A DNA stretch of 64,000 nt from a virus. The stretch lies in the IMG/VR virus record IMGVR_UViG_3300033153_013547, positions 124,001 to 188,000 of that record, one strand, 5' to 3'. Shown here in pieces: positions 13,170 to 38,300 of this stretch (positions are counted from its first letter, which is position 1; the number at the start of each line of letters is the position of its first letter). The translations under genes were made by a program, and so were the position numbers. Under the pieces are notes generated by a model that did no database searches, had not been told where the DNA came from, and saw nothing but the letters and a program-made list of their open reading frames with translations.

Positions 13170-13178
13170 GTGATTGAA

Positions 13179-15512: not shown

Positions 15513-15540
15513 TATATAATTAAACAAAAAGGAGATAAGA

Positions 15541-16113: not shown

Positions 16114-16184
16114 ACCTCGCTCGTTTTAATCTAGAAAATGATCAGTTAGCAATTCTAGACTGTCTAATAATTGAAGCTTGCAAC

Positions 16185-16526: not shown

Positions 16527-16542
16527 TAATTATTAGATAGCT

Positions 16543-19500
16543 ATGCGTGAGTATGAAAGTGATCGACTCTATGGTGGGCTAAAAAATCTTGGCATTCTTG
16601 CAAGTGTTGCTACGCTCGGCGTATGGGGATATAGATCTGGTCACGTTGCCAAAGCAGCTAGGTCACTTATACAAACCGGCTTCCCTGCCGTAAGAGCAGG
16701 ATTACAGGCCTTAAAACACACTGAAGAAGCCTATACAGCTTCACACATTGGTATTGGTGATGCTGTCAGTCAGTTTGGCATTCATTACCAGCGTGAATTC
16801 AAAAAGCTACAAAAATTTTATGCCACAAGAACTGCCACGGGCAACCCCCTTGATTCAATAATAGGTGCTGCTACACATCTTCCTTCTCTTTTAGAATCTA
16901 TACAAAGCTTTGTAACAGCCATACCACGGGCAGACTTTAGTCGAATTGGCTTTGAAGAAGCAAAAGGAGACTTAATACGTGATCTTGGCAAAATCAACCC
17001 CAACAGAGTTGTATCAGAAGAATTTGCCTATAGTGTTTATAGGATGCTTGGGCTTGAATCCCAAAAATTCACCCCCATATCTATTGGTGGACTTCATGTA
17101 AATGTAAATCAATTAAGCCAACTCACAACACACCATAAACCCCTGGACACCAGGGCAGTAAAAGCTGCATTTGATACTAGAAAAAAGAACCTCAAAGAAG
17201 ATTTTAGTAGATCTCAATTTGATGGTGGACTAACATTTATGAAGTGGCTACTGGGCGATCCCCAAGCTCGTAGAGCCACGTTATTTGATGTAAGACAAGA
17301 TCTAATCAATAGACTTGGTATTCGTGGCAAAACAGGAGCTGAAATAGACGAGAAGTTAGCAGCATATGTTGATAAAAGCTTAGACACGTTCAAACTGTCT
17401 GAAGATGCCAAAGTCATATTCAACGATCTCTTCTATGATCCCAAGGCAGCCAAAGAAATATTTTTAGATCACAATATCTTCAAAACAACAGAAGGGTTGT
17501 TAGATGCTAGATCAATAACGACATCTGTTGACGATCTTTTAGCCAGCCTCTCTAAACGTTGGAGAATTCCCCTAATCAAATGGAATCCATTTGATATGGT
17601 TCGTTCACAGCTTGCCCTAAAACAAACACAGCCATATGCAGTAGTTGTCACTGGTGATAAAATACCAATGCTGAGTGACAAGGACACAAACGTAATATAT
17701 TCCAAGATAGGTGAAAAACTATACAGATTCAAAAAGAAAGAAGCAGAAAAGTTTAGTTTTGAGCTTGTAGAAAAAATAGATTGGGGAGGTAAGAAAAGAC
17801 CATATAAAGTAATGCACCTTGATCCTTCAGCAGGCACAATGGGTGGCATTGTTGCCAAACGCCTGGGTCTCAGGGGTTATCATTCAGAAGCTCTGGACGA
17901 CATTGTGTTAGGCTGGGCAGCAAGGTTTGTTAAAGGAGGAATAGAGGGGGTTCCCGATCCCTATGTTTTTCTCAAAGAATTAGAACAGGGCAGATTGGTA
18001 GATTATGGTATTACAAGTCAGTCTCTTGAAAATCGATTAGAAAATTTTTGGAAAGGTGGCCTTCTCAATATAAATGTAGTTGCCATAGGCAAGTGGCTCG
18101 AAAAACAACTGGACAACCCCAAGATCACAGCAGAGGCAAGACAGAGCATTGCAGAATATGTTGATAGCCTCGTCTACAAACATCCTAAACAAGACAATAC
18201 ATTACACCTTGCCAGAATGATTGACAAGGCAATGGCAAAAGACACAGCATTTATGAGAATGTTCAAAGAGACAGGTGGTGTAGTCAAAGAACTGCTCAAT
18301 CTTTCTCCAGAACAACAGGAAGCCCGTATTCTTGAGATAGGAATGAAAAATGCTCTCAATATTTCTAAAAGATCTGTTGTAGAAGCAGGTGGTCAAAGAA
18401 CAATTTTAGAACGTATGGAAATGGATTTTGGAGTATGGAGTGTCTTAGAACACTTCAGACTGCTCAATAGTCCTGCCACTAGCATGAATGCCTTTATTAC
18501 TGGTGGACATATTACAGAATCTATGGCCCAGGAGATGGCAAGTCTCAAGATTCTGGATACATATTTGTATAGCATTATGAGAATGGCGCCAGCAAGAAAC
18601 AAGCTTCATTGGATGACACATGAAGGACATCAACTGGCAGCATTTGAAGCATTTAGCAAAACTCCAGATTGGGCAAGAATATTAAGAACACATTATGAAC
18701 CCTTAGACTCAATACGTATTCAAGATGCACTGATAAAGAAAAATGTTACGGCAACAGAAATTTATGAAAACCTAGCAAGGATCAACAAAGCAGCAGATAT
18801 CAGTGAAGTAGCAGGCATACTATATGACACAACCGTCGATGTAGGCGAAATGTTTCTCTCTGCGTTTGGATTCAGGGCCCAAGATTATGGAAGCTCAACC
18901 CTAATGCCACACTATTTTGCCGTAACACTATCAGAACAAATGGAGCTTCTAACGGGAATGATGGGTATTAGGCCATCAAACTCGTTGTGGGCCAAATCAC
19001 CCTTTTCTTTGGGCTTAGCATGGGCAGGTATTGAGGTGGCCTTTGGAACAGCAATCAATAGTTTCAACGCAGCAGATCTTGCCATGAGAGGCGCTGGTTT
19101 CAGGGGCCCCCGTCAATTTGCCATGGATGCTTGGGCCAACGCCAATCTACTCCTGGGTCTTGCTAGTGGCAAACTCAAAGAAACCCAGGATTATTATGCT
19201 GAGGGGGAAGAAGAAATAAGGGCCAGCAGATGGTGGTCATTAGGCAGCACCCCATGGGAAGGTGGAAGAATCAAATTCACTGTTCCCAACCTATACAGGC
19301 GTGTTGGAGTAAGAGACGTATACTACGAACAGAAATGGGGTGGAGAATTACAGGCTTTGGCCCACTCTTCATACCCATCCATACTAACACCATTTGCTCC
19401 AATAAGGCATTTCCTAACAGATAGATATTATTATGAACGTCTTCACCTGAAAGATGAACCTGTTCCACTGACTGGTGAATTGTTTGAACCCTCTGCACCA

Positions 19501-22464
19501 GGTGCTGGCTTACTCAATAACATGCTTGGTTTCATAATGAAACCACAGATAGGCATGCACACTGCAGAAATGCATCAAGCCATGAGATCTGATAGCATGC
19601 TTAGCACTGGTATTGATACAACCCCAAGAACAGGTGTGGATCAAGCAAGAATAAACACATTGTTCAGTCACAGAATAGTCACATCAGGTGCTGCTGGCCC
19701 AAGACTGGGTGCCAATAGACCAATATCTACACCTGATCGTTGGGGAACACAACTGGGAGATGATAGAAATAACAAAAATTTAGAAATGCGTGGAGCAATA
19801 ACAGCAGCCAATTTAGCATCAGGTAGCCAAGGCTCACCTTCACGTTTGGGTATAGCAGACTCTACTAGCCCATTCAATGCTCATCTAATAGACTACACAA
19901 GATCACAAATGGAATTGGCAGGTATTTGGGGTTACTATGGCCAAAACCTCACTGGACTAAACAACAGAATCTATAGAATGGAAACTGGTAGAGCAGGATA
20001 TTCCATATCAGATGCCATACAAAAAGCAAATGTAGGATCATGGTTGCCTATTCCAATGTTTGGGGAAATAATAACAGAGGTGCCAAGAAGAATTGTTGGT
20101 GGTGCCCCTAAGGATTATGTAATAAATCCTTTGAGAAATACTATGCCTACGTGGCTTCCTGACAGATTCAAATATGGGAATCAATATAACCGTTTGTCAT
20201 ATGGCCAATATAGGCTTCCGTCGCCAACTTACGAAGCACTGAACAAAGTAGATAGAGAAAGGATTGGTGGATCAACTATTGGCTTACCAATCAATGAATT
20301 GGCTGAAAAAATAGCTGGATTTGACAGAACAAAGATGGGGGCAACAGCTGTAACAGGCACTTTGATGCATAAAGCAATGTTACAAGAATTATTTCAAATG
20401 GGCAAGGTAATTGCTGTTGAAAAAGCAGTAGATGATCAGCAGCACAACATGTATGGATACATAGATGCCATAGTAGAAATAGGTGGACAACCAATGGTTG
20501 TTGATCTAAAAACTACTAATGCTATGAAGTTGCAAAGAATGAGAGAAGGAGAAATTCCTGAAGTATACAAGTCTCAGATCAATTATTATATGTGGGCTGC
20601 CAATGCCTCTATGGGTGCTTTGTATGTTGTAAATCGTGATAACCCAGCAGATAAAATGTTTTGGACAATGAAATTTGACGAAGGCAGACTACTTGACGAC
20701 TTCATCAAATTAGAAAAGGCCAGGGCAATGGTTAGAAGGCTCATTGAACAAGGCTATATTTCTCCATATGAAAGCTATAGGGACTTGGATAGGGCTAAAA
20801 TTTTGGCTGATGTTGCCCCTTATTCTGACGAATTTTCAGACACATTTGAAAGACTTTTGGCTGAGCCAGAAAAAGACATAACCAGACAAGAAGAACTTAA
20901 CAAACTAAAACTGAAAGTGAATAGGATCAAGTCAGGAGATACTTTTGACGAATATTTGTGGAGAAACCCTACAAAGGTCGTTGATGTTCAGAGCATGATG
21001 GTTGAAGATGATAATACCATAACCATGACATATAATTTCAGAGGCAAGAAAAGAACTCATACAGGTGTTCTTGCTGGGGCTATGCCAATAGAAGGTTATG
21101 AAGTGGCATTCAACAAAGCTCTCAAGCAACTAATGCCCATTGAAGCACTAGAAAACGTTAGAATAATGCCTGATGATCCTAAATCAAAAATCATCGTATT
21201 TACCAAGGGAGGTAATAGTGTAGCACAACAATTAGTGGACCTTCATCTTGGTTTGCCCGCCACAACAGGCAGACAAGAAGATAGAGAGGCTTTAATGAGA
21301 CATCAGGGATCATATGCTTGGGAATGGTTCACTCACTTAGATTCTCCTATGCACACCAAATTTGGGAAAGCAGATGCCTGGGAAGAATATAAAAGAAGAG
21401 TTGTATATGGCACAAGATATACATCTCCATTCACCCGTCCTATAAAATATACAGGACACATGTTAGAAGCCCTTGCTGGACACGACAACCCTATAGAAGC
21501 AGCCTTTGGTGGAGCCATGGTTGGAGCACTTATTGGTAGCACAGCAGGTAGATTAGCAGTGGGTGGCATGGCAAAAGGAGCAATAGCAGGTAGTATTTTG
21601 GCAGTTGCAATTTCTGGTGGACGTCAACTCATTGATCTTTTCACTGGTAAGGCTATGGTTCCACCAGAAGAAAGAAAATCAAGAGAGATAGAGGATTATG
21701 TGGACAAACTTGAATATGTCAAGTTTAAAAGGCTCTTTGAATCTACTTCCTTGATGTTAGAAAGAGCAGGAATCAATCTGTCTAAAATAGCCAATATGGT
21801 TATGTCTGGTAAGACAGTAGTTGATGAAGTAATGCAACAATTCCCTAACTATGGTCCTTTGATCAAAAGAGGGCTGTATTATAAACAAGAATATGAAAGC
21901 ACTATGTTTGCATTGAGTAGAGCCAGTGATATGAGAACTATTCTTAGAGCTTTACCCAAAAGAGAAAGACAATATTATTTGGCTTTCAAAAACTATCACC
22001 AACATAATAAAAAACAAATATTGAAACTAGCATCTCCATCACTGAGAAAGGCTCTGGCTATCACGTGGGGAGAAGACATGCCAGAGGGGGAATCTATAGA
22101 CAAATACTTCCAGTCTCATTGGCTACCAGAGCCCAGTTGGACAGGATGGCAACCAGATACATCTATCAGTGATTATAAGGTAGTTTTGGCAAGAGAAGAG
22201 GGGGTTGAATACCATGAATTGGGCATGTGGGAAGACTCAGTACAAAGAACCAGGATGTGGCAAGCTCAACCACGTATGCGTCATGGAACTGGCGTCAATA
22301 TGCAAAAAAGGATTAGAGAATTGTTAGGTAGAAACGGCCTGTCTGATATAAGTATTCAGATCTTACAGTCAACATCAGACAAAGACATTGATATAAACTT
22401 CACTATTCGGGAGGATGCATCCAGAAGTGCTGCAGTAAAATATGCGGCTAGTCTGGAAATGTAG
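16543..22464 (+). CDS. Giant virion protein 1 with RecB-like PD-(D/E)XK nuclease domain
   Basis: 1973 aa, directly after the tail chaperone pair where a tape measure gene is expected; no clear ribosome site, so translation may be coupled. The N-terminus has a hydrophobic stretch (LGILASVATLGVWGY). Residues ~1265-1400 hold a RecB/Cas4-type nuclease: GTLMH with H1276, E1293, GYIDA with D1308, VVDLKTT with D1321 and K1323, and Q1345-x3-Y1349, the QxxxY motif. All expected catalytic residues are present, so the domain should cut DNA in a metal-dependent way. A Gly/Ala-rich membrane-like segment lies at ~1655-1690 (GAMVGALIGSTAGRLAVGGM). The C-terminus ends with short beta strands (DIDINFTIRED). 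The rest, mostly helical, is unrecognised. I infer a tail-lumen protein, possibly ejected with DNA and combining tape-measure and nuclease roles. Confidence 0.75.
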   Translation: MREYESDRLYGGLKNLGILASVATLGVWGYRSGHVAKAARSLIQTGFPAVRAGLQALKHTEEAYTASHIGIGDAVSQFGIHYQREFKKLQKFYATRTATGNPLDSIIGAATHLPSLLESIQSFVTAIPRADFSRIGFEEAKGDLIRDLGKINPNRVVSEEFAYSVYRMLGLESQKFTPISIGGLHVNVNQLSQLTTHHKPLDTRAVKAAFDTRKKNLKEDFSRSQFDGGLTFMKWLLGDPQARRATLFDVRQDLINRLGIRGKTGAEIDEKLAAYVDKSLDTFKLSEDAKVIFNDLFYDPKAAKEIFLDHNIFKTTEGLLDARSITTSVDDLLASLSKRWRIPLIKWNPFDMVRSQLALKQTQPYAVVVTGDKIPMLSDKDTNVIYSKIGEKLYRFKKKEAEKFSFELVEKIDWGGKKRPYKVMHLDPSAGTMGGIVAKRLGLRGYHSEALDDIVLGWAARFVKGGIEGVPDPYVFLKELEQGRLVDYGITSQSLENRLENFWKGGLLNINVVAIGKWLEKQLDNPKITAEARQSIAEYVDSLVYKHPKQDNTLHLARMIDKAMAKDTAFMRMFKETGGVVKELLNLSPEQQEARILEIGMKNALNISKRSVVEAGGQRTILERMEMDFGVWSVLEHFRLLNSPATSMNAFITGGHITESMAQEMASLKILDTYLYSIMRMAPARNKLHWMTHEGHQLAAFEAFSKTPDWARILRTHYEPLDSIRIQDALIKKNVTATEIYENLARINKAADISEVAGILYDTTVDVGEMFLSAFGFRAQDYGSSTLMPHYFAVTLSEQMELLTGMMGIRPSNSLWAKSPFSLGLAWAGIEVAFGTAINSFNAADLAMRGAGFRGPRQFAMDAWANANLLLGLASGKLKETQDYYAEGEEEIRASRWWSLGSTPWEGGRIKFTVPNLYRRVGVRDVYYEQKWGGELQALAHSSYPSILTPFAPIRHFLTDRYYYERLHLKDEPVPLTGELFEPSAPGAGLLNNMLGFIMKPQIGMHTAEMHQAMRSDSMLSTGIDTTPRTGVDQARINTLFSHRIVTSGAAGPRLGANRPISTPDRWGTQLGDDRNNKNLEMRGAITAANLASGSQGSPSRLGIADSTSPFNAHLIDYTRSQMELAGIWGYYGQNLTGLNNRIYRMETGRAGYSISDAIQKANVGSWLPIPMFGEIITEVPRRIVGGAPKDYVINPLRNTMPTWLPDRFKYGNQYNRLSYGQYRLPSPTYEALNKVDRERIGGSTIGLPINELAEKIAGFDRTKMGATAVTGTLMHKAMLQELFQMGKVIAVEKAVDDQQHNMYGYIDAIVEIGGQPMVVDLKTTNAMKLQRMREGEIPEVYKSQINYYMWAANASMGALYVVNRDNPADKMFWTMKFDEGRLLDDFIKLEKARAMVRRLIEQGYISPYESYRDLDRAKILADVAPYSDEFSDTFERLLAEPEKDITRQEELNKLKLKVNRIKSGDTFDEYLWRNPTKVVDVQSMMVEDDNTITMTYNFRGKKRTHTGVLAGAMPIEGYEVAFNKALKQLMPIEALENVRIMPDDPKSKIIVFTKGGNSVAQQLVDLHLGLPATTGRQEDREALMRHQGSYAWEWFTHLDSPMHTKFGKADAWEEYKRRVVYGTRYTSPFTRPIKYTGHMLEALAGHDNPIEAAFGGAMVGALIGSTAGRLAVGGMAKGAIAGSILAVAISGGRQLIDLFTGKAMVPPEERKSREIEDYVDKLEYVKFKRLFESTSLMLERAGINLSKIANMVMSGKTVVDEVMQQFPNYGPLIKRGLYYKQEYESTMFALSRASDMRTILRALPKRERQYYLAFKNYHQHNKKQILKLASPSLRKALAITWGEDMPEGESIDKYFQSHWLPEPSWTGWQPDTSISDYKVVLAREEGVEYHELGMWEDSVQRTRMWQAQPRMRHGTGVNMQKRIRELLGRNGLSDISIQILQSTSDKDIDINFTIREDASRSAAVKYAASLEM

Positions 22465-22469
22465 CAATC

Positions 22470-25400
22470 ATGGCAATATACATTCCAACTTCTTCTACTG
22501 TATATGCAAGCGAAGACCTATTGCGGTTACCTGCCATGCTTGGAACAGAAGATGTTTTTGCCAAGTATCTTAGCAATATAACTGACAGAAAACATACTAT
22601 TACACTTTTTGTGATAGAAAGTGACAATCTACCACAAAAAAGGCTGGAAATTGTTTTGGAAGGAACAAAGATACGGGTTTATACAGAAACAACCACTACA
22701 CCAATCATTTTTTCCAATACAACGTTTACCAAAATGGAACCGTTTATTCGTAATGGCAAATTCGAAACCGCAGGACGTAACGTGGAAGTTAGAATACTGG
22801 CTCGTGATCTAGCCATTCTCATAGAAGAAACCAAATACCAGTCTGGTTCAGCATTCATACCTGATTCAATAGTGCAAATGGTCACAGCAGTTCAAAGAAG
22901 GACAGATCCAGAAGGAACGATAATCAACCTTATCACCGCTCTCGAAGAAAAAATGGCTCAAGTGCCCATAGGAAGAATAGGAGCCCAATTACCACGAACA
23001 CCAGGATTACAAGCGGGAGAGCATTTTATTACAGTTCTTGACGATCTAAAAAAGAGAGATGTGCTAAACGAAGGAATTAGAGAACTATCAGAAGCACGAA
23101 TCAGTGGAATAGCCAGAGGACAAACACCCGATATGGCTCAAAAAAAAACTCAAGCAGTCACTGCCATAGTTACCAAAGATTATCTGGATAGATTTTTTAG
23201 ACAAATAGTAGGTGGTGGCAAAAAAACTGTTACAGAAGAATTCGAAGAATTTGTCAAAACCAATAGGGTTGCCCAAATAATTGAAGATCTTGTAGATTGG
23301 CATGGCTGGATCACTGCCTTCTATGGTTATACAGGGCCTACTCAAGAGATTATAGAAACAGCCTTTGAAGAAGCTGCAAAGGAATACATTGGCATTGTAG
23401 GCCTACTATCTCCCGAGGAAAGAAGTAATATAAAGACCAGATTCATTGCCAAAGTAATGGATGGGATCAAAGAAAGAAAACAAGCAAATTTGCCATATGA
23501 AGTTAGTGTGCGTCTTAAGAAACTCAAATCCAGTGGGGCAGTAATAGATGTTGGCAAATTTGCCTTGTCAGCCCCAGATCAAATGACCAAATCCTTGGGA
23601 GCCAGAAATCTTAGTGATGCTTTTGGAACAACAAGAGTTCCTTCTGGGCTCAAAGAACACGTTAATCAGATTCTTGCTGCCCCACTACAGATCAGTAAGC
23701 CACTATACAGACAATACACACCTTACCAAGATCTAATATCCCTGATTGATCAACTAAAATCCATTCCTAAGTCTGGTGTTATTCCTAGAATATTAGACTT
23801 TGAGGGGTGGATTGGAGACAACATTACCCTCACAACCCAACTGGGTGTTCTGGATGTTGCTGATTGTGCCAAGAACTTCACAGAGATTACCAAAGCAGGC
23901 TCTCAGTTTATGATGTCCAGCAGACCTCATGGCATTCATGGTAAAGTAGATGAGCAAACAGCTACTTATTTGAAAGATGAGTTGCTCAAAATGTGGAGCA
24001 AAGCCAAGGCATGGTCACTTGATCCTAGAGAATCTCATTTCAACCCCAACGACAAAAACAGCAAACTGCTCATGAATCTTGGTAGAATGATTATTGCTGG
24101 TTCAGAAGATATGGAAACACAAGAACTCAGAGCTGCTACCATGGCCCAACTAAATGTTGAGGGCATTAGTGCAGACACATTATTAGACTGGTATGAAAAA
24201 GCACTTCATCAAAAAATGAGACACCACAAGTTTGAAGGCAAAGGAACAAAAGCAACACTCTCTGAATTTCAAGAGCTCATCAAAACCACATTCAAAGATG
24301 GTAGGGTTTTCATGCACAACCCAGAGGGTGCTGATATTACCCACATATACAATCTTTTAGAAAAAGGATCAGATCCTATAGCCTATGCAGAAGCCAAAAA
24401 ATTAGTGCAAAGCAAAACCACAGATAGTATTGCTATATTTCAGTATTTACAAGAATTGGCCATGGTTAGGGGGGACAAGTCTTGGGAAGATATGGCTTCA
24501 ACGTCTTTTGCCATGAACAATTTAGTCAAGAAGTATGAAAGCCTTATGGGGGGATTGACCACTGCAGATCTCCACCTGCTTGGTAAAAACGATGCTTATG
24601 CTGCAGGTCGACTCATGATTATCAGTCTGAATGCAGCAATGAACGACACCACCGCACATAGTATGGCTGATCAAGTATTTGCCAAAAGCGTTACATCTGA
24701 AACAATAACCAATAACTTACGATTTGTAGCAGAACTTTTTGATGAAAATCTTGCAAAAAACAAAAAACTCTTTACAAACATAGAAGATTGGATCAGAGTG
24801 GCCAGTGGTATTGATCCCTCAGAAGATTTGGGCTCTAAATTAGTTCATGAAGGAATTGAGGTTTATAGTATAGTAACCAAGCCTCTAAAAAGATCAGATC
24901 TTGAGCTATGGGCACAAAGATTCGATGTGACTATGGAGACCCCTGTCGGACTGGAACGACTGGAAATAAAACCACCACGAGGGCTACGTTTAGGACAAGT
25001 AGTTACTGATGATCCATCTGTATGGAGGGCGGGCACGGCGCTCAAAACACTTCTCCAAATGGACGCAAAAACCAATGAAATTCTATTTAGCTTCACAGAT
25101 ATGAATGGCATCCAGCATAAATTTAGGGCCAAAAACATATTAGCTCTAAACAACTTACTGGCTCAAGGAGGCTTTGAAACCACAACAGAAAAAGGAATGT
25201 CTAGATGGATCAACACACTCATGGACGATGCTCGAAGACTATTCGACAATCTCACTGGTTCTTTCAATGAAGATCCAAACATGATAGGACGAATAATTGA
25301 AATACATAGCAACAACATAAGAAACATTATAGATCATTCAACAAGAGACCCACAAATTGCGGGTATACTTGATAAAACATCAGAATTACTTGCTGCAATA

Positions 25401-26756
25401 AAATCTGGTGAACCACTATTTGACACAACCAATCCTCTAGGACATACTTTTATGCAGAACATGTTTGATCTACACAAGCTTGACTGGTTGGAGGGAGGCA
25501 GCAAGTCCATTGCAGAAGCAGTAATATTTGTGGCACAACACAAAAACAATCTTGAAGTTGTTGACACTATGCTAGGAAACCAGATGCTTTTACATCATCT
25601 AACCAAGAGCATGTATACTGGTGATGCTAGAAGTTTTCTAATGTATGATCAAGAATTAGCCGATAGATTAGGAAAATCAATGGAGGAAATTAGTTTTTAC
25701 AAATATAGCCCCCTGGCTGAAGGCACAGTGCTTGACAATGCTGTTTTGAGAATTGGGGACACAGATTCCTCGGTCATAGTATCAATGAATGCTCATAAAA
25801 CCCACGACGACATCAGGGCAATTTTGAGCAGAACCACAGACAAACATTCCAAGGCAGCAAGATTCTTGGCAGATGAATTTTTGGGTGAAACAATAGATCA
25901 AAAAACCTATGCACTGTCTAATAAAACAGAAAGAAAAGTGTTAGGAGACAGAATAGCAGCACAAATAATCAAGGAATCACAAGAGATCAATACCTTCAGA
26001 AGAACACATTCTGAATTGTTATACGAACCAACTATCGCTCCTGGCGTAGCCACGGGCAAAGGAAGAAGCGCCTGCGGAAGGGCTATTTTTGATGTTATCC
26101 ACGATGAAGAATTCATAGGCAGAATAGTGGGGAAAGGCCACACACTGTGGGAAGAACTCAAAATAGCTTCAGACACAGGTAGATTTAGAAACTTCCCAGA
26201 TGCCTTGATGCAATACGGTAATTCTATTATAGACACTATATCCGTGGCAGCAGAAGAAAGTGGACGTCTTAGAGACAAGACTTCAGCAGCCAACATAATT
26301 ATGGCATTCAATAATATGGGCATATTTGAACCTGCAAGTGTCGAGAATCGTTTCTTTCCACAAATGCCAAAAATACAGGCTGATATAAGTAAAACTGTTG
26401 TAAAGAACCTGGGTCGCATGGGAATGGCAGCAGCAGCAATTCCTCTAATTGCATTAGGTGCTGCTAGGCCCCCACTTAGAGGACTAGAAGAATTACCAGT
26501 AGATGAAGCATTTGATCCAGATTTTCTGCAAGGCAAAACATCAGCTGCTGGACCACCAATTGTTATTCAGAAACCACTTGGAATTACAATAAATATTGAT
26601 GCCAAGGGCACAGAAGGCAGATATGATTTGTCTAATATAATGAATAGCTTGAGACACACCATGGGAATAAACGCCGAACAGCGCGTGACAACGTCGTTTA
26701 ACAAGCTCTCTGATATTGAAATTGAGAGGCTCATGGAAATGGAGGCCATAGATTAA
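22470..26756 (+). CDS. Giant virion protein 2 with DEDD (DnaQ-like) exonuclease motifs
   Basis: 1428 aa, starting five bases after giant 1; its stop overlaps the next start (TAATG). Residues ~430-720 contain three motifs in the order of DnaQ-superfamily 3'-5' exonucleases: ILDFEGW (D443, E445), FMHNPEGADITHI (H616, N617, D622) and HLLGKNDAYAAGRLM (H702, D708), the last preceded by an amphipathic helix as in the family. Two points weaken this: motifs I and II are 179 residues apart, longer than usual, and the final H-to-D spacing is one residue longer than the standard H-x4-D. A hydrophobic segment at ~1312-1332 (MAAAAIPLIALGAA) is followed by a Pro-rich linker and a tape-measure-like tail with ITINIDAKG. 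The remaining helical regions are unrecognised. Likely packaged with its two giant neighbours. Confidence 0.7.
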   Translation: MAIYIPTSSTVYASEDLLRLPAMLGTEDVFAKYLSNITDRKHTITLFVIESDNLPQKRLEIVLEGTKIRVYTETTTTPIIFSNTTFTKMEPFIRNGKFETAGRNVEVRILARDLAILIEETKYQSGSAFIPDSIVQMVTAVQRRTDPEGTIINLITALEEKMAQVPIGRIGAQLPRTPGLQAGEHFITVLDDLKKRDVLNEGIRELSEARISGIARGQTPDMAQKKTQAVTAIVTKDYLDRFFRQIVGGGKKTVTEEFEEFVKTNRVAQIIEDLVDWHGWITAFYGYTGPTQEIIETAFEEAAKEYIGIVGLLSPEERSNIKTRFIAKVMDGIKERKQANLPYEVSVRLKKLKSSGAVIDVGKFALSAPDQMTKSLGARNLSDAFGTTRVPSGLKEHVNQILAAPLQISKPLYRQYTPYQDLISLIDQLKSIPKSGVIPRILDFEGWIGDNITLTTQLGVLDVADCAKNFTEITKAGSQFMMSSRPHGIHGKVDEQTATYLKDELLKMWSKAKAWSLDPRESHFNPNDKNSKLLMNLGRMIIAGSEDMETQELRAATMAQLNVEGISADTLLDWYEKALHQKMRHHKFEGKGTKATLSEFQELIKTTFKDGRVFMHNPEGADITHIYNLLEKGSDPIAYAEAKKLVQSKTTDSIAIFQYLQELAMVRGDKSWEDMASTSFAMNNLVKKYESLMGGLTTADLHLLGKNDAYAAGRLMIISLNAAMNDTTAHSMADQVFAKSVTSETITNNLRFVAELFDENLAKNKKLFTNIEDWIRVASGIDPSEDLGSKLVHEGIEVYSIVTKPLKRSDLELWAQRFDVTMETPVGLERLEIKPPRGLRLGQVVTDDPSVWRAGTALKTLLQMDAKTNEILFSFTDMNGIQHKFRAKNILALNNLLAQGGFETTTEKGMSRWINTLMDDARRLFDNLTGSFNEDPNMIGRIIEIHSNNIRNIIDHSTRDPQIAGILDKTSELLAAIKSGEPLFDTTNPLGHTFMQNMFDLHKLDWLEGGSKSIAEAVIFVAQHKNNLEVVDTMLGNQMLLHHLTKSMYTGDARSFLMYDQELADRLGKSMEEISFYKYSPLAEGTVLDNAVLRIGDTDSSVIVSMNAHKTHDDIRAILSRTTDKHSKAARFLADEFLGETIDQKTYALSNKTERKVLGDRIAAQIIKESQEINTFRRTHSELLYEPTIAPGVATGKGRSACGRAIFDVIHDEEFIGRIVGKGHTLWEELKIASDTGRFRNFPDALMQYGNSIIDTISVAAEESGRLRDKTSAANIIMAFNNMGIFEPASVENRFFPQMPKIQADISKTVVKNLGRMGMAAAAIPLIALGAARPPLRGLEELPVDEAFDPDFLQGKTSAAGPPIVIQKPLGITINIDAKGTEGRYDLSNIMNSLRHTMGINAEQRVTTSFNKLSDIEIERLMEMEAID

Positions 26757-29700
26757 TGACACAGACACCTTCACACATCAGTATTGAAAATCTACACAGG
26801 CAAGTAGTAGATAAAGTCATTGCACTGGATATGCATAGCATTTTACACACACTTGAAGAATCAGGAGCCATTGGGGGTGGCCTTACTCAAGAAGAACAGC
26901 TCAATACCATTCTCAATGCTGTAAAAAAGACGTCTTGGGGACAAGGCATCTCTCTTGAAAAACTATCCACATCACAAACTTCAGCATTGACGGGGCCATA
27001 TGACAGAAACAGGGTGGTTGCAGCTATTACTGCATCTGCTGAAGCATCTTCTATAATGAAGATAGTATTTAATCTCCAAAATTACAAGAGCAAAATCACA
27101 GGCAAGGAATTGTTTGATCAAGATATGATAGGGCCAAGGCTGTTGTTTTTATTAGAAAAACCACCTTCTGATGTGGAATCTATTGCCAAAACCTTTTCTA
27201 CATCTGACCAGCTGTCTAATAGAAACACTATTGCTGCAATGTTAAATACCTTCAACTACCTGGCAGCAATAGACAAAGTACATAGTGACTGGGATAAAAG
27301 GTTGGCAGAAGGGGAAACCCCCCAACAATTACAACGAACTGTCAATGATTTAGTAAATAAGATAAAAACCGACGTTAATCGAGCCAACGAATATAATCTT
27401 GATGCACAACATCTTGCAACGAGAATGCGTAAAAAAGATACATTACAGCAATCTCTGAAAGTAGTAAGTGATCCAAAACTCATCCGGCTTGAATCAGACA
27501 TTAGACAGGGCATTAAAGCAAAGCTTTCTGGAGACACCACTGGCAATGCTGTTTTGCTAATAGCTGATGTTGATGCTAAGGGCAATCAAGTAGGAATGTA
27601 TAAATCCATGAGGGAATTTTTGACCTCTTATGGATTCAATCAGCCAGAAATTATTGCAGAAGCTCTGGATATACAAATACAGCATCCACAAAACTTTGAT
27701 CAAGCAACAAAAGCACTGAAGGCTACAGATAAACTTCCTGAATTTCTTTTCAAGTTGAAAAAGGGCGACAGAGAAAGGGTGTTTAGGGGCAGGCTTGGTC
27801 CTGCTCCAGTTAGACACCCCCAAATAGACATAACGAAAGGTTTTCCCTACAATCTTGTCTTGGCTGCCCATCCTGATAGCACAATACCTGGTGGTAAAGC
27901 AGCCCAGCGAGCCACAAGTGGGATAGGAGTTAATCAGGTATACGTGAGTCTTCTAAACTTAGCCAGAATAAACGCAGACTATGATGGGGATACAATCATA
28001 AATTACATAAATACCAATCTAAAATCTGAGATACTTCAATACATAAAAGAACATGGTAAAAAAGAGAGCCCTGGGCTAGTATTAGTTGGGGCCATGGATA
28101 TGATAATTAAATCCCTGGCATTCGGTGAGGAAACCAAGAAAGAACTGATAAGTGCTGGAATGCTACGCTCCAAGCTGAGAGAACGAGTAGGCGTAATGGC
28201 TCGCCAAAGAGCAAACTTTGTATCCAAAAGAATCCTCAAAAAGTCTTATATCCCAGGACAAACAATGGTATTAGAGATTGGGGGCATCAAATATGGATTG
28301 GAAGCTAATCCTGCTCAGGGAATAAAAGAAATAGAAGTCCTCATAACTGAAACAATTATGAAGAATTTTGACAAAAACATGAATCCTGCAAAAGCATTTG
28401 TCAGAGCAGAAGAATTGATACATCAAGAGGGGGATATTTATGTTTTTGATCATCTTGCCAACAAAAAACTTTCTGGAATAGAAGTTGTAAAGTGGCAAGA
28501 GAAAAATATAAACCGTGCTCTCATTGAAGACAATCTACTGAAATGGGGATTGCACCTAAGTGATCGTGTAAAGAGACTGGGCGCAGACAATGCTCTCATA
28601 AAACAATTCATGGCAAAATTGGCAGACACAAAAGATCCAGACAATTTCTTAAGATCTATGGAAGCCATAAATGACATAGCACAAGATATTATCAGCAGAG
28701 GAGATGTTTCTGAAGAAACAGTCAGCAAAATTATAAAAGAACATGCCAGAAAAACGGGCATTGCTTTTGAAGCACACAAAATACTTAAAGGGGGAGTAGG
28801 GGAAATTGGAGTGATACAGTATGCGTTCTTTGAACACGTACACAATAACATCAAATATTTGTCCAATATTGGTGCAGAACAATTAACAGATCTCAAAAAA
28901 TTAGCTGATTTCTTTGAGGTAATGGCACAAATTCCGTTAGAAGCAAAGCACAAAACAGGTGGTTCTTTCAAAATGATAGCCCACATCCTTCGCACGGTTC
29001 TCAAGGGTGGAGGTGTCAATGTTAAGGACACGGCTCAAGACATAACAAACATTCTAATGCGTGGAAAGATGCCAGAAGTACTCGCAAGTGTCACGGCTAC
29101 TGCTTATCCGGTTGGCCAAATTTGGGAAGGCGAGGGTTTTACTCTACATCGTACAAACCTAAGAAACTGGGTAGAAGAAGCTATTCGTGTTTTGGCAAAT
29201 CCGCGTATATCCACAGCAATACAAGAACAAATTAGCAACAAATCAGCATGGACAGGGGGAGCGGGAGCAGCGGCAAGGGTTGCGGGCGGCATGGAAAGCA
29301 CTATTATTGAACTTACTGGAACCAAAGATATTACCCAAGCATTTGAGGGAGCACTAAGCATCAACCCAAAAGACCCAGGCGCCGTTGATGTTGTCAAAGA
29401 ACTTCACCAACTTAGTACTTCTAGTTTTAAAAGACGTGACTACGACAGTTTTACTCGCAAGCCCAACGAATTAGCAACCATCATTTCTGAAAAAGCAAAA
29501 AAGAATGTTTATGAAATTGCTCGTGTTACAGACAAAAGTGGCATATCTAAATTAGAACTAAGACAAATCTATGATCCTAACAAACCAGAAACCTTCGACG
29601 CCATAGCCTCGCGGCTACCTGCTGGAGTAGTTCCAGACGAAGACACAATACAATTTGTTATAAATGATAGGGTGCGAAAGCAAATACAAAATGGAAGAGC

Positions 29701-32332
29701 CGATTATCTCATGCCTGAATTTATGGAAACAGAGCTGAGAAAAAGAGGCGTAATGATAGAGGCAATGCAACGATTAGAAGGTGAAATGCTATCTCTATCT
29801 AAGGTCAGCACAATAGCAGATGAAGAAAAAGCAGCACTATCCAAGAATTTATATGCCTTTGCAATGGAATGGCATGAAAAAGTTCATGGTGGGAAAAGAG
29901 GGGCAGAGCATTCGTTTATCGAAGCATTTGGTGATTATCTAAAGAACACTGGTATTACTGCGTTAGACTTAGAAGAAAGTGGTCATATAGAACAATATGG
30001 GAAAAAAGTCATGTCTGCTATGGCAGATCTTAAAATAATATTTAGCAGCCCAACCAGTGGTCAAATAGCAAATCTACTGGGTGGTTCAATTGCATCAATA
30101 CCTGCAATAACAAATGCTGAAGAATTACAACAACTCGTAGCAACAAGAGTATTTGATCCTATGGCCAGAGTATTTGCAAAAGGCCAGTCAACAGAACTGG
30201 GAATCAACTTTATCAACGAAGGTGCCGTGCAAAATCTTGTCAACAAAGTCAGAACCATGGAAAGCCAGGGCATCAATCAGAGTGAGCTACAAAAAATATT
30301 TGCAAAAATTACTGGCTTAAATGAAGAACTAATCACAGATCCCCTTATGCAAGACATTGCAGACAAATTTCAAAAACTTCTCAATCAGTCTGAGGGTGCA
30401 ATGTGGATCCTAAATTGGCAACAAGTAGCTACAGTGCAAGAAATGAAGATCAGTGAAGAAAGTGCAAAAATCTTTAGTAAAGCTCTGCAAGGAATCTATG
30501 CTTCTGGTGAAGAAGCACTTGATGTTGTGCCAGGCACAAAACAATATGAAAGATTCTTGCAGCAATATGCTGCAGCTGAAGGAAAACACTCTCCTCAGTA
30601 TCTCAGAGATCATGGTATTCCTTTTACTGACGCCACAGGCAAACCACGCACTATTCGGCCAGAACATATGGGGCTAAACTTCCGCCCACTTATTCATGGC
30701 GATAAATATGCCATGGTGCAATGGAAAGGCTTTCAAGCAAGTCAAATCCCCTTTGCCAAGGCCCACCTATCTGGCCTTGCGTTTCCAGTAGGAAGCCTTA
30801 TGGAAGAAGTTATAGAAGAAGCGGGTAAAAAACCGGAAAACGTATACAATCGGCTTGCAGCTTTCATGATGAGTGGTGATCTAAATGCTATTGATTCATG
30901 GCTTGGGGAAGCAGAAAAAACAAATATTTTGATACCACGAAATCCCTTCAACAAATGGGCACGTGCTTTTTTAGGAGCAGCTCCTGGGTGGAACGCACAT
31001 AACGAGCGAGCAACTGCAACGGGTGTGGGACCCACCGTTGTGATAAATCTCGTAGAGGACTTGGGTCTTAGAGATGTTTTTGTTACATTGAGAGAGGGGC
31101 AATCTCCAGAATTTTCAGATATGATGACAAACATAATTGCTGAAGAAGCACCTGGTGGAAGCATAGGATTATATCGTATGGTAGAAGAATTGTCACGAAT
31201 ACGTACCAAACCACTGGTTGCACTTGAAAAACAGGGAATAATCAACCTACGTTATCTGGATCAAAACATGCTGCGTGATCCTCTGTTAGAACGAGCAACA
31301 ATGGGAGATCAAGTTAGACTGAGAAACACCATAAGACTAACAGAGCTTGGCATAGACAACACTACTAAAATTGATGAAATATTGCTCAAAAAGATCAGGG
31401 CAACTTTCCCAGCAGATGATAGCATAATTGTTGGACATAATGATTTAATCACCCAAATCCTAGCAGCAGACAAAAAACGAAATATTCTAGGCACAAAATT
31501 TGGGGCCATTGGCTACACAAAGGGAATTTATGACTATCTACAAGTAGCCATGGAAATGTTAGATGACATAATGGCTCCTGAAGATATTCCCATTGGACAG
31601 AGAAACCAGTGGGTTATAGAAAATATCCTTGCTGGATTTATCAACCCATCAGATTTACCCATAGATGAAGCAAGAGTTATAGATGCAGGCAAAAATATTT
31701 ACAAAAGGAATTTATACAATCTTGGTCAATCTTCTGAATGGATCAATAGATATGCAACAGATTATTCTGATACATTTAGAAAATCTATAGGAGCCAATGT
31801 TCATGATTTTATAACACAGGTAGGAGAAAGAAACCCAAAGATCATGGGGACACTTGGCCTCATAGCATTGGGAGTGGGAGCTTTTTCTGTGGCAAATATG
31901 CTGGATTATACCAGTCTAAAGGCTAATGAAGACAATCTTCATCAGTATTCAACTAATAAAAGATTAGCAGATTCCATGGCACATGCCAAGACATATGATC
32001 CGCGAATCATTGTTATAGATGGCATAGCCGCAAACGAAACTACTGAAGCAATAACTGGACTATCTAGTCCTCATTCAAGGGCCATGCAAAAGTTTGGCCC
32101 TATTGTGAATCGTCCCCCAAGTGGTGGCAGTAATGGACTTTTTAGAAGAGAAGGTATGGGGTATAACATACCCATATCAGAAGCCAGATCAGCAAGATCT
32201 CTACAAGAAATAAGCAGTGTTATATCTAATAGAAAGTTCAATGTAAATACTAATATAAAAGTTGTTCAAAGGGCTAATGCCGACAGTATAAAGACATATT
32301 ATAATAACTATGTAGAATATGGCAGTTTCTAA
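26756..32332 (+). CDS. Giant virion protein 3: predicted RDR/QDE-1-type RNA polymerase
   Basis: 1858 aa, start overlapping the previous stop (TAATG). Residues 406-412 are NADYDGD, the metal-binding signature of the large RNA polymerase catalytic barrel (NADFDGD in bacterial beta-prime), with D408, D410 and D412. Flanking motifs follow the order of RDR/QDE-1-like enzymes: an upstream ADVDAKGN...YKSMREF (ends at 288) resembling the end of the first barrel, RGRLGPAPVRHP at 344-355 like the R-P-HP entry of the second barrel, and KKLADFF...EAKHKTGG ending at 736 like the conserved LA-F-AVD-PKTG helix. The lysine-bearing first-barrel motif is not clear. A zincin-like HEKVH is at 1040-1044, and a hydrophobic segment at ~1696-1716 precedes a beta-type C-terminal tail. 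I infer a virion-borne polymerase that transcribes early phage genes after ejection. Confidence 0.72.
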   Translation: MTQTPSHISIENLHRQVVDKVIALDMHSILHTLEESGAIGGGLTQEEQLNTILNAVKKTSWGQGISLEKLSTSQTSALTGPYDRNRVVAAITASAEASSIMKIVFNLQNYKSKITGKELFDQDMIGPRLLFLLEKPPSDVESIAKTFSTSDQLSNRNTIAAMLNTFNYLAAIDKVHSDWDKRLAEGETPQQLQRTVNDLVNKIKTDVNRANEYNLDAQHLATRMRKKDTLQQSLKVVSDPKLIRLESDIRQGIKAKLSGDTTGNAVLLIADVDAKGNQVGMYKSMREFLTSYGFNQPEIIAEALDIQIQHPQNFDQATKALKATDKLPEFLFKLKKGDRERVFRGRLGPAPVRHPQIDITKGFPYNLVLAAHPDSTIPGGKAAQRATSGIGVNQVYVSLLNLARINADYDGDTIINYINTNLKSEILQYIKEHGKKESPGLVLVGAMDMIIKSLAFGEETKKELISAGMLRSKLRERVGVMARQRANFVSKRILKKSYIPGQTMVLEIGGIKYGLEANPAQGIKEIEVLITETIMKNFDKNMNPAKAFVRAEELIHQEGDIYVFDHLANKKLSGIEVVKWQEKNINRALIEDNLLKWGLHLSDRVKRLGADNALIKQFMAKLADTKDPDNFLRSMEAINDIAQDIISRGDVSEETVSKIIKEHARKTGIAFEAHKILKGGVGEIGVIQYAFFEHVHNNIKYLSNIGAEQLTDLKKLADFFEVMAQIPLEAKHKTGGSFKMIAHILRTVLKGGGVNVKDTAQDITNILMRGKMPEVLASVTATAYPVGQIWEGEGFTLHRTNLRNWVEEAIRVLANPRISTAIQEQISNKSAWTGGAGAAARVAGGMESTIIELTGTKDITQAFEGALSINPKDPGAVDVVKELHQLSTSSFKRRDYDSFTRKPNELATIISEKAKKNVYEIARVTDKSGISKLELRQIYDPNKPETFDAIASRLPAGVVPDEDTIQFVINDRVRKQIQNGRADYLMPEFMETELRKRGVMIEAMQRLEGEMLSLSKVSTIADEEKAALSKNLYAFAMEWHEKVHGGKRGAEHSFIEAFGDYLKNTGITALDLEESGHIEQYGKKVMSAMADLKIIFSSPTSGQIANLLGGSIASIPAITNAEELQQLVATRVFDPMARVFAKGQSTELGINFINEGAVQNLVNKVRTMESQGINQSELQKIFAKITGLNEELITDPLMQDIADKFQKLLNQSEGAMWILNWQQVATVQEMKISEESAKIFSKALQGIYASGEEALDVVPGTKQYERFLQQYAAAEGKHSPQYLRDHGIPFTDATGKPRTIRPEHMGLNFRPLIHGDKYAMVQWKGFQASQIPFAKAHLSGLAFPVGSLMEEVIEEAGKKPENVYNRLAAFMMSGDLNAIDSWLGEAEKTNILIPRNPFNKWARAFLGAAPGWNAHNERATATGVGPTVVINLVEDLGLRDVFVTLREGQSPEFSDMMTNIIAEEAPGGSIGLYRMVEELSRIRTKPLVALEKQGIINLRYLDQNMLRDPLLERATMGDQVRLRNTIRLTELGIDNTTKIDEILLKKIRATFPADDSIIVGHNDLITQILAADKKRNILGTKFGAIGYTKGIYDYLQVAMEMLDDIMAPEDIPIGQRNQWVIENILAGFINPSDLPIDEARVIDAGKNIYKRNLYNLGQSSEWINRYATDYSDTFRKSIGANVHDFITQVGERNPKIMGTLGLIALGVGAFSVANMLDYTSLKANEDNLHQYSTNKRLADSMAHAKTYDPRIIVIDGIAANETTEAITGLSSPHSRAMQKFGPIVNRPPSGGSNGLFRREGMGYNIPISEARSARSLQEISSVISNRKFNVNTNIKVVQRANADSIKTYYNNYVEYGSF

Positions 32333-35300
32333 CAATTACACAGAGACCGTAAATCTTGGTGGCGTGACGTTCAATGTCCCCATAACTAACATCAAAACAT
32401 CTGTCCAGAGTAACATAACGTCTTCCAATTCAATTAGAGAATCTGGATCTGCTAAATTACAAACAGATCAGATTGTAGAATTGCTGGAAATAACGTTTTA
32501 TGCCTTTGATCAAAATGGGCTGAAAACTGCTGCAAGCCTCATGCAACTCTATAAAAATATACCCTTTGTATGGGTTGCTTCTCCATATATCAATGCTGGG
32601 CTCAATATATGTGATGTAGCACTGCATAGTGTTACTATTTCTAGTGTTCCTGGGTTCCCCAATACATATAAAATAGACTTGGTTCTTGCCCCCTTTGACT
32701 CGTTTGCTATAACCAACTGGCCCACCCTATTATCTGGCACAAATCTTGAGCTGTATTATACATATCAAACATATGTAGCAAACAAGACTGCAAAAAGACT
32801 TGGCTCAACCAAACAATATGGTGTTATGTTACCTACTGATCCTCCTGGGCAACCAAATCCCTTTGACATTTTTGTGCCATCTGATGACTTTTTGGAAGAG
32901 ACCAAAATGGCCATGGACATGATTGATAATGCCCTAAAGAATGCTATTACATTTTCCAATAAAAACGAAGATGGATTGTATGCAGTAATCACACGCGACA
33001 TAGGAACAGACAATACTCCAGAAGAAATGTCTAAGAAACTGGCTGATCAACTCAAAGGATATTTATTAAATGCTGTGGCCAAAGATGCAGACGGCAATGA
33101 AATTAGTTTATTTACCAAAAACAAAAATGGAGACATTGTGCCAGCCCCATGGGACAAATGGCAACAGTGCAGAATATTTGATGTTTATGATCCTGACACA
33201 GGCAAAATACTTACTGGTGCATCTGCAGAAAGCAAGTTCCTAAATCTTTTTGAAGCCATAGAAGAAGCCATTGGGCAAAACTCTCTTGAAGAATACATAA
33301 GAAGAATAGATGCAAATCAATCTTTAGCAACCTTTCTCAATTCTTTTGCCAGTATTGCCAAAAATACAGATCTATACACACATGCAGCTACAGCACTCCA
33401 AATCAACGCAGTAGATATAAATTTAATTAGGCAAGTAATAACAGGAGAAAATCTTCAACTCAAAGTCAAGTTGCCTAATTATTCCTACGGACAGGAGGGT
33501 GCAGCAATAAACAGGGGATATTGGGATTATCTTCTGATGGGTGTAAATATAGATGTAAATATTGGAGGAAATTTCAAAGCCCAAGCTCCTACAACAACCA
33601 ATCAAACAGTCCCAGATCACTTAGATTTATTTGTTGAAGACATTGACTCACTAAAAAGACCAGGTTTCCTTGGTTTACTTTATGACATATATCTAGGAGC
33701 CAGAGGCTTTCAAAATATATTGTCTGGAGCCACAGAATCACTTGCAAAATTGTTTGATAGAGACAGATATAGAGAAAGTGGATATATTCCAGCAGGACTA
33801 ACCCAATTTTCCCCACAGCAGGTTGTTGTTTCATTCAACAACAAATTTTCTACTGGATATTTGCAAAATGCTCTGACTGTAAGACCCATATATTCCTATG
33901 TTGGATCAGGAGACTTCACAATACAAATACTAAATACTGTTACAGATCCTGACCATAGTGAACTGAAAAAATTTACAGATACAATAGATTTGGCTTTCTT
34001 ACAAAACAAAAAGTTCCAGGGAGAATTGCCTGCAGGATTTATTGCTATTAGAGACCCATTGGTTCAGTCAATGGGTATTTTTGAGTGTCTGATAATTGGT
34101 TATTCTGTTACTCCTATGCCAGAATATCCCAATGTTTTTCATGTAGAACTTACTACAACTGATTTCAATTTACAGAAACGCACAGAATACATGATCAACC
34201 GCATTGATCCTTATGGAAAAATACATGGTGGCGATGACAAAAGCACTGCTGCCGCAACAGCACTATCTTCTTCATTGCTTGATCCTGTTTTTGATCCTGC
34301 GTCACAATTTTCATCGCAAGAACCGAGAACACTTGAGACGGCGTTTGGAGAGCAACAAATACAATACGATCCAGAATATAAGCCACCCACAACCAGCAAT
34401 AGTGCCTCTGGTAGCGAAGCCTACTATGATTATGAAAACATAGATGGTGGAGATATATTATGCGTCAAAGAATTATATCAAGACTGGTTCAGAGCCAAGT
34501 ATTCACTCAGACAGTATAATTGTTACCCAGATATTATTTTACCAACACTACACGAGGCACAAATTATATTTGGTGATTTTGACAAGCCCATATCCATTGC
34601 TACTGGTGCAACCAATATTGACAACCCCTCCACTGCTGAAAACAAAACAGAAGTTCATGTGCTAAAAGACTTCAAAGCATACTATGAATGGCGTCAGGCA
34701 GGGCTGATCAACGGAGAAAGAACAGATCCATTCATGGACTATGGGGGAGATATCAATGTTACTAAATTAGATTGGACTGAAACTGGTGAATATGTAGTGC
34801 CCTATTTTTTCTTCTATCCATCAAGGATTGAAGTAATCAGTGATGCAAATGCAAATGTCAATCAATATGACACTCCACTTATAGGAGGAGATGATCAACT
34901 AAACCGAGGAGATAATCAACTAAACCTCAGTAGTTTCAATATAGACGGAGATATCAACGGAACAACAGAACAACCAGATGGCTCCTCTGCCATTACCGAA
35001 AAAGAAAAAATATACGAATCTCCATTTGGTGCCGCTGCGCGGGTGTTTGGGCTGGCGCCTGTGGCGCCGCCCCCTACAGCACCAGCTGGATCCATAACTG
35101 ATGTTACAGAAGACATTGCAGAAAATTCGGAGTCAGGCACGCCTGCAACAACAAAAGAAAAAAGCACGATGCAGGAGAAGATGGTTGGAAAGAAACGTAT
35201 CAAGAAAATTAAGGAAATACAAAAACACCAGGCAGAACACCCCACTACAGATGATGAAGTCGGCACGGAAGACACAGCATTTACAATGCCTCTTGGTGAA

Positions 35301-38300
35301 TTCCCATTAGAATTCTACTGGATAGAAGAAGAAAGATATAACAAAAGAGGGGACATAGCTCAACTATTTCCAACCTTTCATATTATGATCATAGATGAAT
35401 TTCCCTGGCAATTTGGTTGGAAAATGAAAGATTTTCTTTATCAATCAGTCAGGGTTGAAAGAATAAAAACATATGGGGCATCTGATGATCTAAAAGAGTT
35501 TGCATTTGTTGATGTGGCAAATACTTATGGAGACCTTACCAAGGAAGAGATGAACCCAAGTCTTCTGGTAAGCTATGCCTTTGCACTCAAGAAACCACCA
35601 AGTCTTGAGGAAAGACTTTTTGATGATTACAGAAATTTCTTTAGCAATCTTGCAAATATGCTGGATCGAACAGATGATATAGAAACATACTTTGCAGTCA
35701 AGTCTGCTATTTCTAATGTTTCTGGTGCTCTGTTTTTGAAACAGGGTGTGCGTGTTCAGATTAGAATGGGTTATGAATCTAACCCCCTGAGACTAAAACT
35801 AGAGTTTATGGGCAAAATTCAAACTTTAGGAACAGGTGAATCTTTTCAAATTGTGTGTGTTTCTGATGGGGTAGAATTTGATACGCCCATCAATAACAGA
35901 ATAGATACCAAGGGGACAATGTGGAATAATATTACCACATTCTTTGACAAGCCTGCTGATGTCTATGGGGTTATAAACAATTTTATGAATGAACGTGGAG
36001 GAGCAGGAATCTTTGGCAACCTTGGTGATTCAGTCAAAACCTGGTTGGGCAAAGCTGGTGATTGGGGATTTGATAGATTGGTATACGAATCTCCTTATGG
36101 GATAGAACACTTTGGATACAGAAACAAGGCTGTTCCAGGCAGGTTTACCAGAACTGATTGGGATTTTAAGTCAACCAAGGAAGTTCTGAAAAAGCTCAGC
36201 TCAGATTCTACTGAAAATTCTGATCTCAAAGATATTTTCTCTAATTTGATGGCCTACAAAGACGAAGGCCAGATACAAAAAAACATAGAAGCATACGAAG
36301 AAGCACTAGAAGCAGCAGCCAAAGCAATCGAAGAAAAGGCAAAAGAGCTTAAGGCAGGAAAGGCTTGTCTATTTAGTCCCACTGAATGTCTTAAAATGCC
36401 TAAATCCTTACAGATTCCAACTGACCCCGATAATGGCACAATGACACTAAATTGGAACATTCTGCAAAGCAACACGAAGATCAAAGCCAATATACTCAAA
36501 GGTAATTTTATAGACCATTGGTCAGATCTCAGACTACGCTCACAAGGATTAGAAGAGCCCCTTAGCACCATCATCAAAATGATGAATGATATTGCTGGAA
36601 TTGATGAATTTATATCAATATTTGATCCTTTTACACCATTTTTTCCACGATATCAATTGTTTGGTGGAGACAAATATTATCAGCTATTTGGGACAATTAG
36701 TGGGCTACAAAAAGACTTGAAAGATAAAGATTTTAATCCAGAAGAAGGGTTAGAAACAGCCAAAGCACTAGATGAATTAGTCTATTTTATTCTCAATGAA
36801 TTGAGAAAACTATATGGGACTTACTCAAATTATTTCAGACCGACAAACATAGCAGAATTTGACATAGACATAGACAATATTTTGGGAGATGCCAGTATAC
36901 TACTCAAAGAACTAGAAATAACAAGAGGATCAGTCACAGCAATAGGGAATAAATCTGATAGTTCTCTAGATCTATTATTTAGATCAATGAGACTAAATAC
37001 TGGGCTTGCTCAATCTCATGGTAGAGCAAGCACACAAGCATCTCTTACGAAAAATGATATAATAACCAAAATCCTTGTCAATAAAGTTGGACTAAATAAA
37101 GAAACAATAACTCTTTATTCTAGGGGCAACAAAACACTTCTAAGCCTTCCCAACGAAGAAGCGATGATCTTGGGAGAATGGTTGCTAACCATAATCAATG
37201 CTGGTAGATCTGAAGAAGAGCAACAAACCATAGATCCATTGATCCGAGCCCTAGACGTGGCACAAGATACTCCATTAGATGTCTTTGGCATAGATATTGG
37301 TCACATTCTTTTTGCTGGTGAAACTATGATGAACATCCATCAGCCTGCCCATGCATTTAGTAAGGCAGGCAGTGAGATAAATCAGTTTGGAGGAACAGGA
37401 GCAGGAGACTTTGGCAGTGGCACAACCTATGATGAAGAAGGACTATCAACCAAAAACGACCACAGAGACGTAGGAAACACACAATTAATAACAAGTGATG
37501 GTGACAAGTTCAAATTTAGTTCCAAATTTATTAGATGGATAAAACTAACAGAAAACGGGGGGCTTCATGAATCTGTTATCAAAGGAGGAACAATAAAACC
37601 ATATGATGATGGACCACAATGGTCTATTGGATACGGAAATTTTGCTGGGGAAAAGCAACGGGACATAATAGATCTCACGCTTCACCCCCCAATCTACAAA
37701 TCGATCCCAGAATCTCTTGCAGATCAATTGCTTGTTGATGAACTAAATAAGTTTAGAAAGCAAGTTTTACGAATACTTGGAGATAGTGCTAATTTGCTGA
37801 ACCAATCACAAATTGAGGCACTAACAAGCATGACCTACAACACTGGCGCAGGCAATACAAAAACTAAAAGAGTTTATGCTGCCATCAAAGAAGGCAATTT
37901 ATCAGATGTGCCCAGACTAATTAGAGAGGGAGAAAATCGCATAAGAGGCAAAGGAGTCGATCCAGGCCTTACCAGACGCAGAAAAGATGAATCAATTATA
38001 TGGTCATGGCAAGACGCTACTATATCATCTAAAAATATAATCAATCCATTGAGCAATCCGTTTACCGAACCATCTCCCTCTTCACAATGGGACCCTGAAA
38101 CGGTATTCAATCCCTTTCCATATGAGAAAGATCTTCCTACACCCAATACTCGCATTCCAGTTAAATCATTTCTCGACGAAATAAAGCCTGCCTTCGAGGA
38201 CAGTGTGAACGCGGCACTTGGGCGACCACCCGGGAAAGAAATCCGAATCACATCGACAACAGGTGGCACCCACGCCGAGAACAGCATGCATTATAGGAGA

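Follow-up and report, generated by a model that had tools for sequence, protein, structure and literature searches.

A candidate two-barrel RNA polymerase encoded in the presumed tape-measure slot of a contractile-tailed jumbo phage

Sequence comparisons suggest that a giant 1858-aa protein in the tail block of this phage (26756..32332, + strand) rather probably carries the catalytic barrel (DPBB-A, approximately aa 340-430) of a DNA-dependent RNA polymerase of the two-barrel kind, divergent and nearest to the beta'-like barrels of jumbo-phage polymerases, and that it would act as a virion polymerase, placed in the presumed tape-measure slot, ejected and used for early transcription. In this model, the virion or its tail tube would contain the candidate polymerase; by analogy with gp96 of Thermus phage P23-45, it would reach the cell together with the first DNA and would transcribe the early genes, including the genes for a second polymerase at 24-28 kb of the record; transcription by the ejected protein would start before this second polymerase is made. 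The window analysed here, 64,000 nucleotides in length, comprises bases 124001-188000 of a 261124-bp jumbo phage record, and coordinates refer to the window unless they are given as positions of the record.

The ORF is intact and, as the earlier note reported for this tail-region protein, contains NADYDGD at aa 406-412 (27971..27991, +), the predicted Mg-binding motif with D408, D410 and D412. The upstream element named in the same note, RGRLGPAPVRHP, is likewise present at aa 344-355 (27785..27820, +), approximately 52 aa ahead of NADYDGD, and possibly represents the R-x-P element of the DPBB-A barrel; MAFFT aligns it with RYPTI of the KLEB27-3 protein family described below. Because 16% of positions in the 1858-aa protein have an R-x-P 30-75 aa ahead of them, this element is weak evidence. 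In the whole phage proteome, exact NADYDGD is expected 2e-4 times and [NGK]AD[YF]DGD 1.4e-3 times, and each is observed once. The former expectation speaks against the alternative, which we regard as unlikely, that NADYDGD is a chance occurrence, or a metal-binding turn without polymerase function, in what is simply a tape-measure protein or an ejected structural protein. What lends this alternative weight is that NADYDGD and ADFDGD exist in non-polymerase phage proteins, that the similarity of the flanks is weak and that a second barrel was not found. Indeed, a DxDGD-type motif by itself can mislead, as it recurs in phage proteins other than polymerases: roughly ten of the approximately 75 NADYDGD matches in IMG/VR are in non-polymerase proteins. 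Separately, ARxxADFDGD or HIKARLxADFDGD was repeatedly observed in a family of phage proteins that show no polymerase features (eight loci).

The profile evidence for the polymerase barrel is concentrated at the motif. A catalytic-barrel (DPBB-A) HMM was made from 71 phage polymerase segments, with the 1858-aa protein left out, and searched against all 319 ORFs of the genome, among which this protein ranks second with E 5e-5 in a match that covers only the motif and the strands next to it; the top rank is held by the ORF at 25723-27390 of the record (E 4e-11). Of 3000 full shuffles of the 1858-aa protein, none scored as high. When the seven motif residues were kept, 61 of 3000 shuffles did, and the flanks add only p ~0.02, which argues that nearly all the evidence lies in the motif and its immediate strands; the likeness to polymerases spans only about 25 residues around NADYDGD. 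Custom jumbo-phage beta' HMMs match the protein in the motif region only, with E 2.5e-5 and 1.9e-4, and in the case of the former only KLEB27-3-type proteins score above it. Judged by these comparisons, the closest profiles to the 1858-aa protein are those of multisubunit-type beta' barrels of jumbo phages. Searches of Pfam (RdRP included, up to E 1) gave no match to the protein, those of PHROG gave no meaningful match and none to an RNA polymerase family, those of PDB sequences gave no meaningful match, and direct homologues were not found in IMG/VR or phage records. The AlphaFold model is nearly all helix, as a structural protein might be, with a pLDDT (36.3 for aa 1-860; 34.9 for the core of a homologue) that is too low for the fold to be read reliably.

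The second barrel (DPBB-B), which contributes two basic residues, was not detected in the 1858-aa protein, in its 1428-aa neighbour or in gp034 of phage KLEB27-3 by a beta-type HMM that also misses the proven polymerase gp96; the DPBB-B HMM matched only the other polymerase of the phage. We suggest that the present phage may even have its two barrels on separate, adjacent giant proteins.

The position of the gene is informative. The region between the tail-tube and baseplate-hub genes is where tape measure and ejected proteins lie, and the 1858-aa ORF is one of several giant ORFs in a row, flanked by sheath and tube-like genes on one side and a hub gene on the other, all on the + strand. The tail sheath gene (9513..12209; phrog_16991, E 1.5e-47) bears out the earlier claim that the phage is contractile. 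It is followed by a tail-tube-like gene (12238..13101; phrog_9206, E 7e-41), for which the PHROG label is major head protein and the KLEB27-3 proteins in its place are annotated as tail tube, and by a second tail-tube-like gene (13170..14414; phrog_9206, E 1.3e-18). A 1973-aa protein (16543..22464) is the homologue of KLEB27-3 gp031 and gp033 and of CDS0026 of a Moorella phage (BLASTP E 1e-41 to 1e-46); a PD-(D/E)XK or Cas4-like nuclease-like domain (phrog_1706, E 7.8e-13) lies at about aa 1265-1403 inside this giant protein, ahead of the slot. Directly upstream of the 1858-aa protein lies a 1428-aa protein (22470..26756), placed by gene order, for which no profile match was found; by gene order the two together fill the slot of KLEB27-3 gp034. 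A by-eye likeness between the 1428-aa protein and the region of gp034 around KFVSDAGHR was dropped, as profile searches did not support it. Downstream, a 2641-aa baseplate-hub-type protein with a lysozyme domain (32319..40244; phrog_20474, E 5.9e-71) is the homologue of KLEB27-3 gp035, a 'putative baseplate protein' (BLASTP E 1e-28).

Moorella phage MTATph1 and Bacillus phage vB_BauM_KLEB27-3 were identified through the sheath and hub proteins, and their tail blocks are syntenic with that of the window. KLEB27-3 gp034 (15004-22308 of that genome), annotated as 'structural protein' without a stated basis, has 2434 aa, is encoded directly before the hub and contains FVNRYPTI...ARLKADYDGD, with the motif at aa 1934; the annotation is indirect evidence for a place in the virion. 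Pattern searches retrieved two further distinct versions of gp034 from jumbo contigs in IMG/VR, in the same slot and of approximately 2430 aa. All three proteins match PF00623 (E 3e-5 to 4e-4) and the jumbo-phage beta' HMM (E 1e-8 to 1e-12), and one gp034-type homologue matches phrog_2987, 'RNA polymerase beta subunit' (E 1.6e-6). Thus, in three phages the syntenic protein of a sheath-bearing jumbo phage, giant and located before the hub, has an R-x-P followed by ADYDGD inside a well-supported beta' barrel, and this counts against a purely structural role for the 1858-aa protein. The arrangements differ: gp034 is one protein of about 2430 aa with the barrel near its C end and an N part that resembles a DnaQ-like exonuclease, whereas in the window two genes make up the slot and the barrel lies towards the N end of the second product, and overall similarity is not significant. 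Because the direct comparison of the 1858-aa protein with gp034 is weak and centred on the motif (BLASTP E 0.30, hhalign E 0.023), their homology rests on position and motif. Synteny with the gp034-type proteins is the best support for reading the 1858-aa protein as a polymerase.

The slot before the hub is modular across these phages. In Moorella phage MTATph1 it holds a DnaQ-like exonuclease (CDS0027) and its proteins lack DxDGD; the N-terminal part of gp034 (about aa 68-300) matches the DnaQ-like exonuclease region of CDS0027 (hhalign E 1.9e-7), which suggests that one virion protein may combine an exonuclease with a polymerase barrel. In the same phage, the sequence of the giant tail-slot protein contains, at 24539-27869, genes for a transposase and a DnaC-like ATPase (an IS21-like pair), and the pieces flanking this pair match the two ends of gp034. 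Modularity of the slot, the Moorella proteins without DxDGD and the presence of another polymerase in the phage would fit a decayed polymerase barrel that is no longer catalytic and now serves the tail in a structural or DNA-guiding role; we regard this as very improbable, given that the three catalytic aspartates and the NAD-DGD context, the early loss of which is expected in decay, are intact. Returning to an active polymerase, we propose as a tentative generalization, to which we give somewhat less than an even chance, that a family of contractile jumbo phages has a modular two-barrel polymerase in the tape-measure or ejection slot, which some members would have as a fusion with a DnaQ-like exonuclease and beside the PD-(D/E)XK protein. 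It would pass through the tail tube before the DNA or together with it and would represent a contractile counterpart of gp96 with a beta'-type barrel of independent origin.

The earlier note had assigned the protein to the RDR/QDE-1 type. The reading of the tail-region giant protein as a two-barrel RNA polymerase stands as the best one, on the strength of the catalytic-barrel match and of syntenic homologues with RNA polymerase profile matches; the assignment to this type is not supported. We consider a single-chain RDR/QDE-1/YonO-type polymerase improbable. By eye, YonO shows RSPHL...VYTS...DNDGD...IDFAKT, in the same order as in the 1858-aa protein, and a Bacillus phage with a contractile tail is known to have a polymerase of the RDR family (PMC2147016). 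Against this, Pfam RdRP does not match the protein, and the profile comparison with RDR and YonO that had been proposed, made with a YonO/RDR HMM, gives no match either, a comparison of low power because the same HMM misses the proven gp96; moreover, the KLEB27-3 family matches the jumbo beta' profiles and not the YonO profile. The segment KKLADFF...KHKTGG does exist at aa 714-736 (KKLADFF, aa 714-720, 28895-28915; KHKTGG, aa 731-736, 28946-28963; both +), but it is without statistical support as a polymerase motif: with a PSSM built from twelve polymerases, which leave-one-out shows to be weak itself, the KTG motif that had been taken for the RDR element LA-F-AVD-PKTG ranks 3046 of 77751 positions.

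The 1858-aa protein may be compared with several known systems. The crAss-like phage phi14:2 is a podovirus. Its virion contains gp66, one giant protein with a DxDxD barrel, but the motif is DFDID at aa 1361 rather than DxDGD and no similarity to the 1858-aa protein was found. Phages of the phiKZ type (phrog_2986/2987) share with the present phage a contractile tail, jumbo size and the closest motif profile and, on the reading proposed here, a beta'-like barrel and a virion and non-virion pair of polymerases; they have several beta and beta' genes, whereas the motif here lies in one giant tail-slot ORF and is not split over stand-alone subunit genes. These contractile phages package a two-barrel polymerase (PMC7824862). 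In phage 0305phi8-36, also a contractile-tailed jumbo phage, the two-barrel polymerase gene orf99, published in 2007 (PMC2147016), belongs to the RDR family end to end and lies in the right arm of the genome, not in the tail block. Thus, to call a polymerase of this kind in the tail module of a sheath-bearing phage a notable extension, as had been done, was overstated, since the phiKZ type (PMC7824862) and 0305phi8-36 (PMC2147016) were already known.

The nearest functional parallel is P23-45 gp96, which joins a virion RNA polymerase and the tape measure in one protein and was found only by its DFDGD; it is proposed to enter with the contents of the tail tube and transcribes pre-early genes (PMC10770324). 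As is proposed for the 1858-aa protein, gp96 is a giant tail protein that is encoded in the tape-measure region and has a D-x-D-G-D barrel, in a phage with a separate non-virion two-barrel polymerase; it differs in that the tail of P23-45 is long and non-contractile, and a gp96/gp64 HMM showed no significant similarity to the 1858-aa protein (E 3.1). Tape-fused polymerases are already known in siphophages, and our literature search found no description of contractile-tailed phages in which the tape-measure slot contains a polymerase barrel; the contractile version would be new. If the model is correct, a polymerase that is fused to or parked in the tail slot is not peculiar to one group of Thermus siphophages and arose in contractile tails too, and this would explain how some jumbo phages begin transcription without the host enzyme. 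KLEB27-3, an isolated phage grown on Bacillus australimaris, allows a direct test.

The phage probably has a second, ordinary non-virion two-barrel RNA polymerase, encoded outside the window, because a beta'-like gene stands beside a clear beta gene. The beta-like gene (558 aa, with GDKLSNRSGQKG; record 24087-25763) matches PF00562 with E 1.9e-15, and the beta'-like gene (555 aa, with LRNPVLHRDS...ACDFDGD; record 25723-27390), which heads the DPBB-A search, matches PF00623 with E 3.7e-9. Pairs of virion and non-virion polymerases are the pattern in phiKZ-like phages and P23-45, and a separate polymerase is frequent in phages that have one in the virion (PMC7824862, PMC10770324); its presence here favours the proposed model. 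A record of Enterococcus phage Efs 1-1-1 (OR846602.1) was rejected as a source of homologues of this second polymerase: the contig is bacterial rpoBC, and a phage-labelled record that holds bacterial rpoB and rpoC looks like host contamination. The two polymerase genes adjoin a helicase gene (record 22433-24094) and a peptide deformylase gene.

Elsewhere in the record, a 919-aa protein without a family match (record 69556-72315) has the motif DATDNDGDHVLFVP, which recalls DNDGD of YonO; it was not outstanding in the barrel HMM searches. Inteins are present in a ribonucleotide reductase (record 103225-106446), here with a LAGLIDADG domain, and in another protein (record 115323-118220), which has a weak match to the terminase large subunit. 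Finally, a scan for promoter motifs gave a weak lead: 8 of the 95 regions upstream of genes contain AACTAATA, compared with 0.5 expected (e.g. at record positions 86966+, 87437+, 102424+, 166031+ and 205691-), and it is possibly a promoter-like element.
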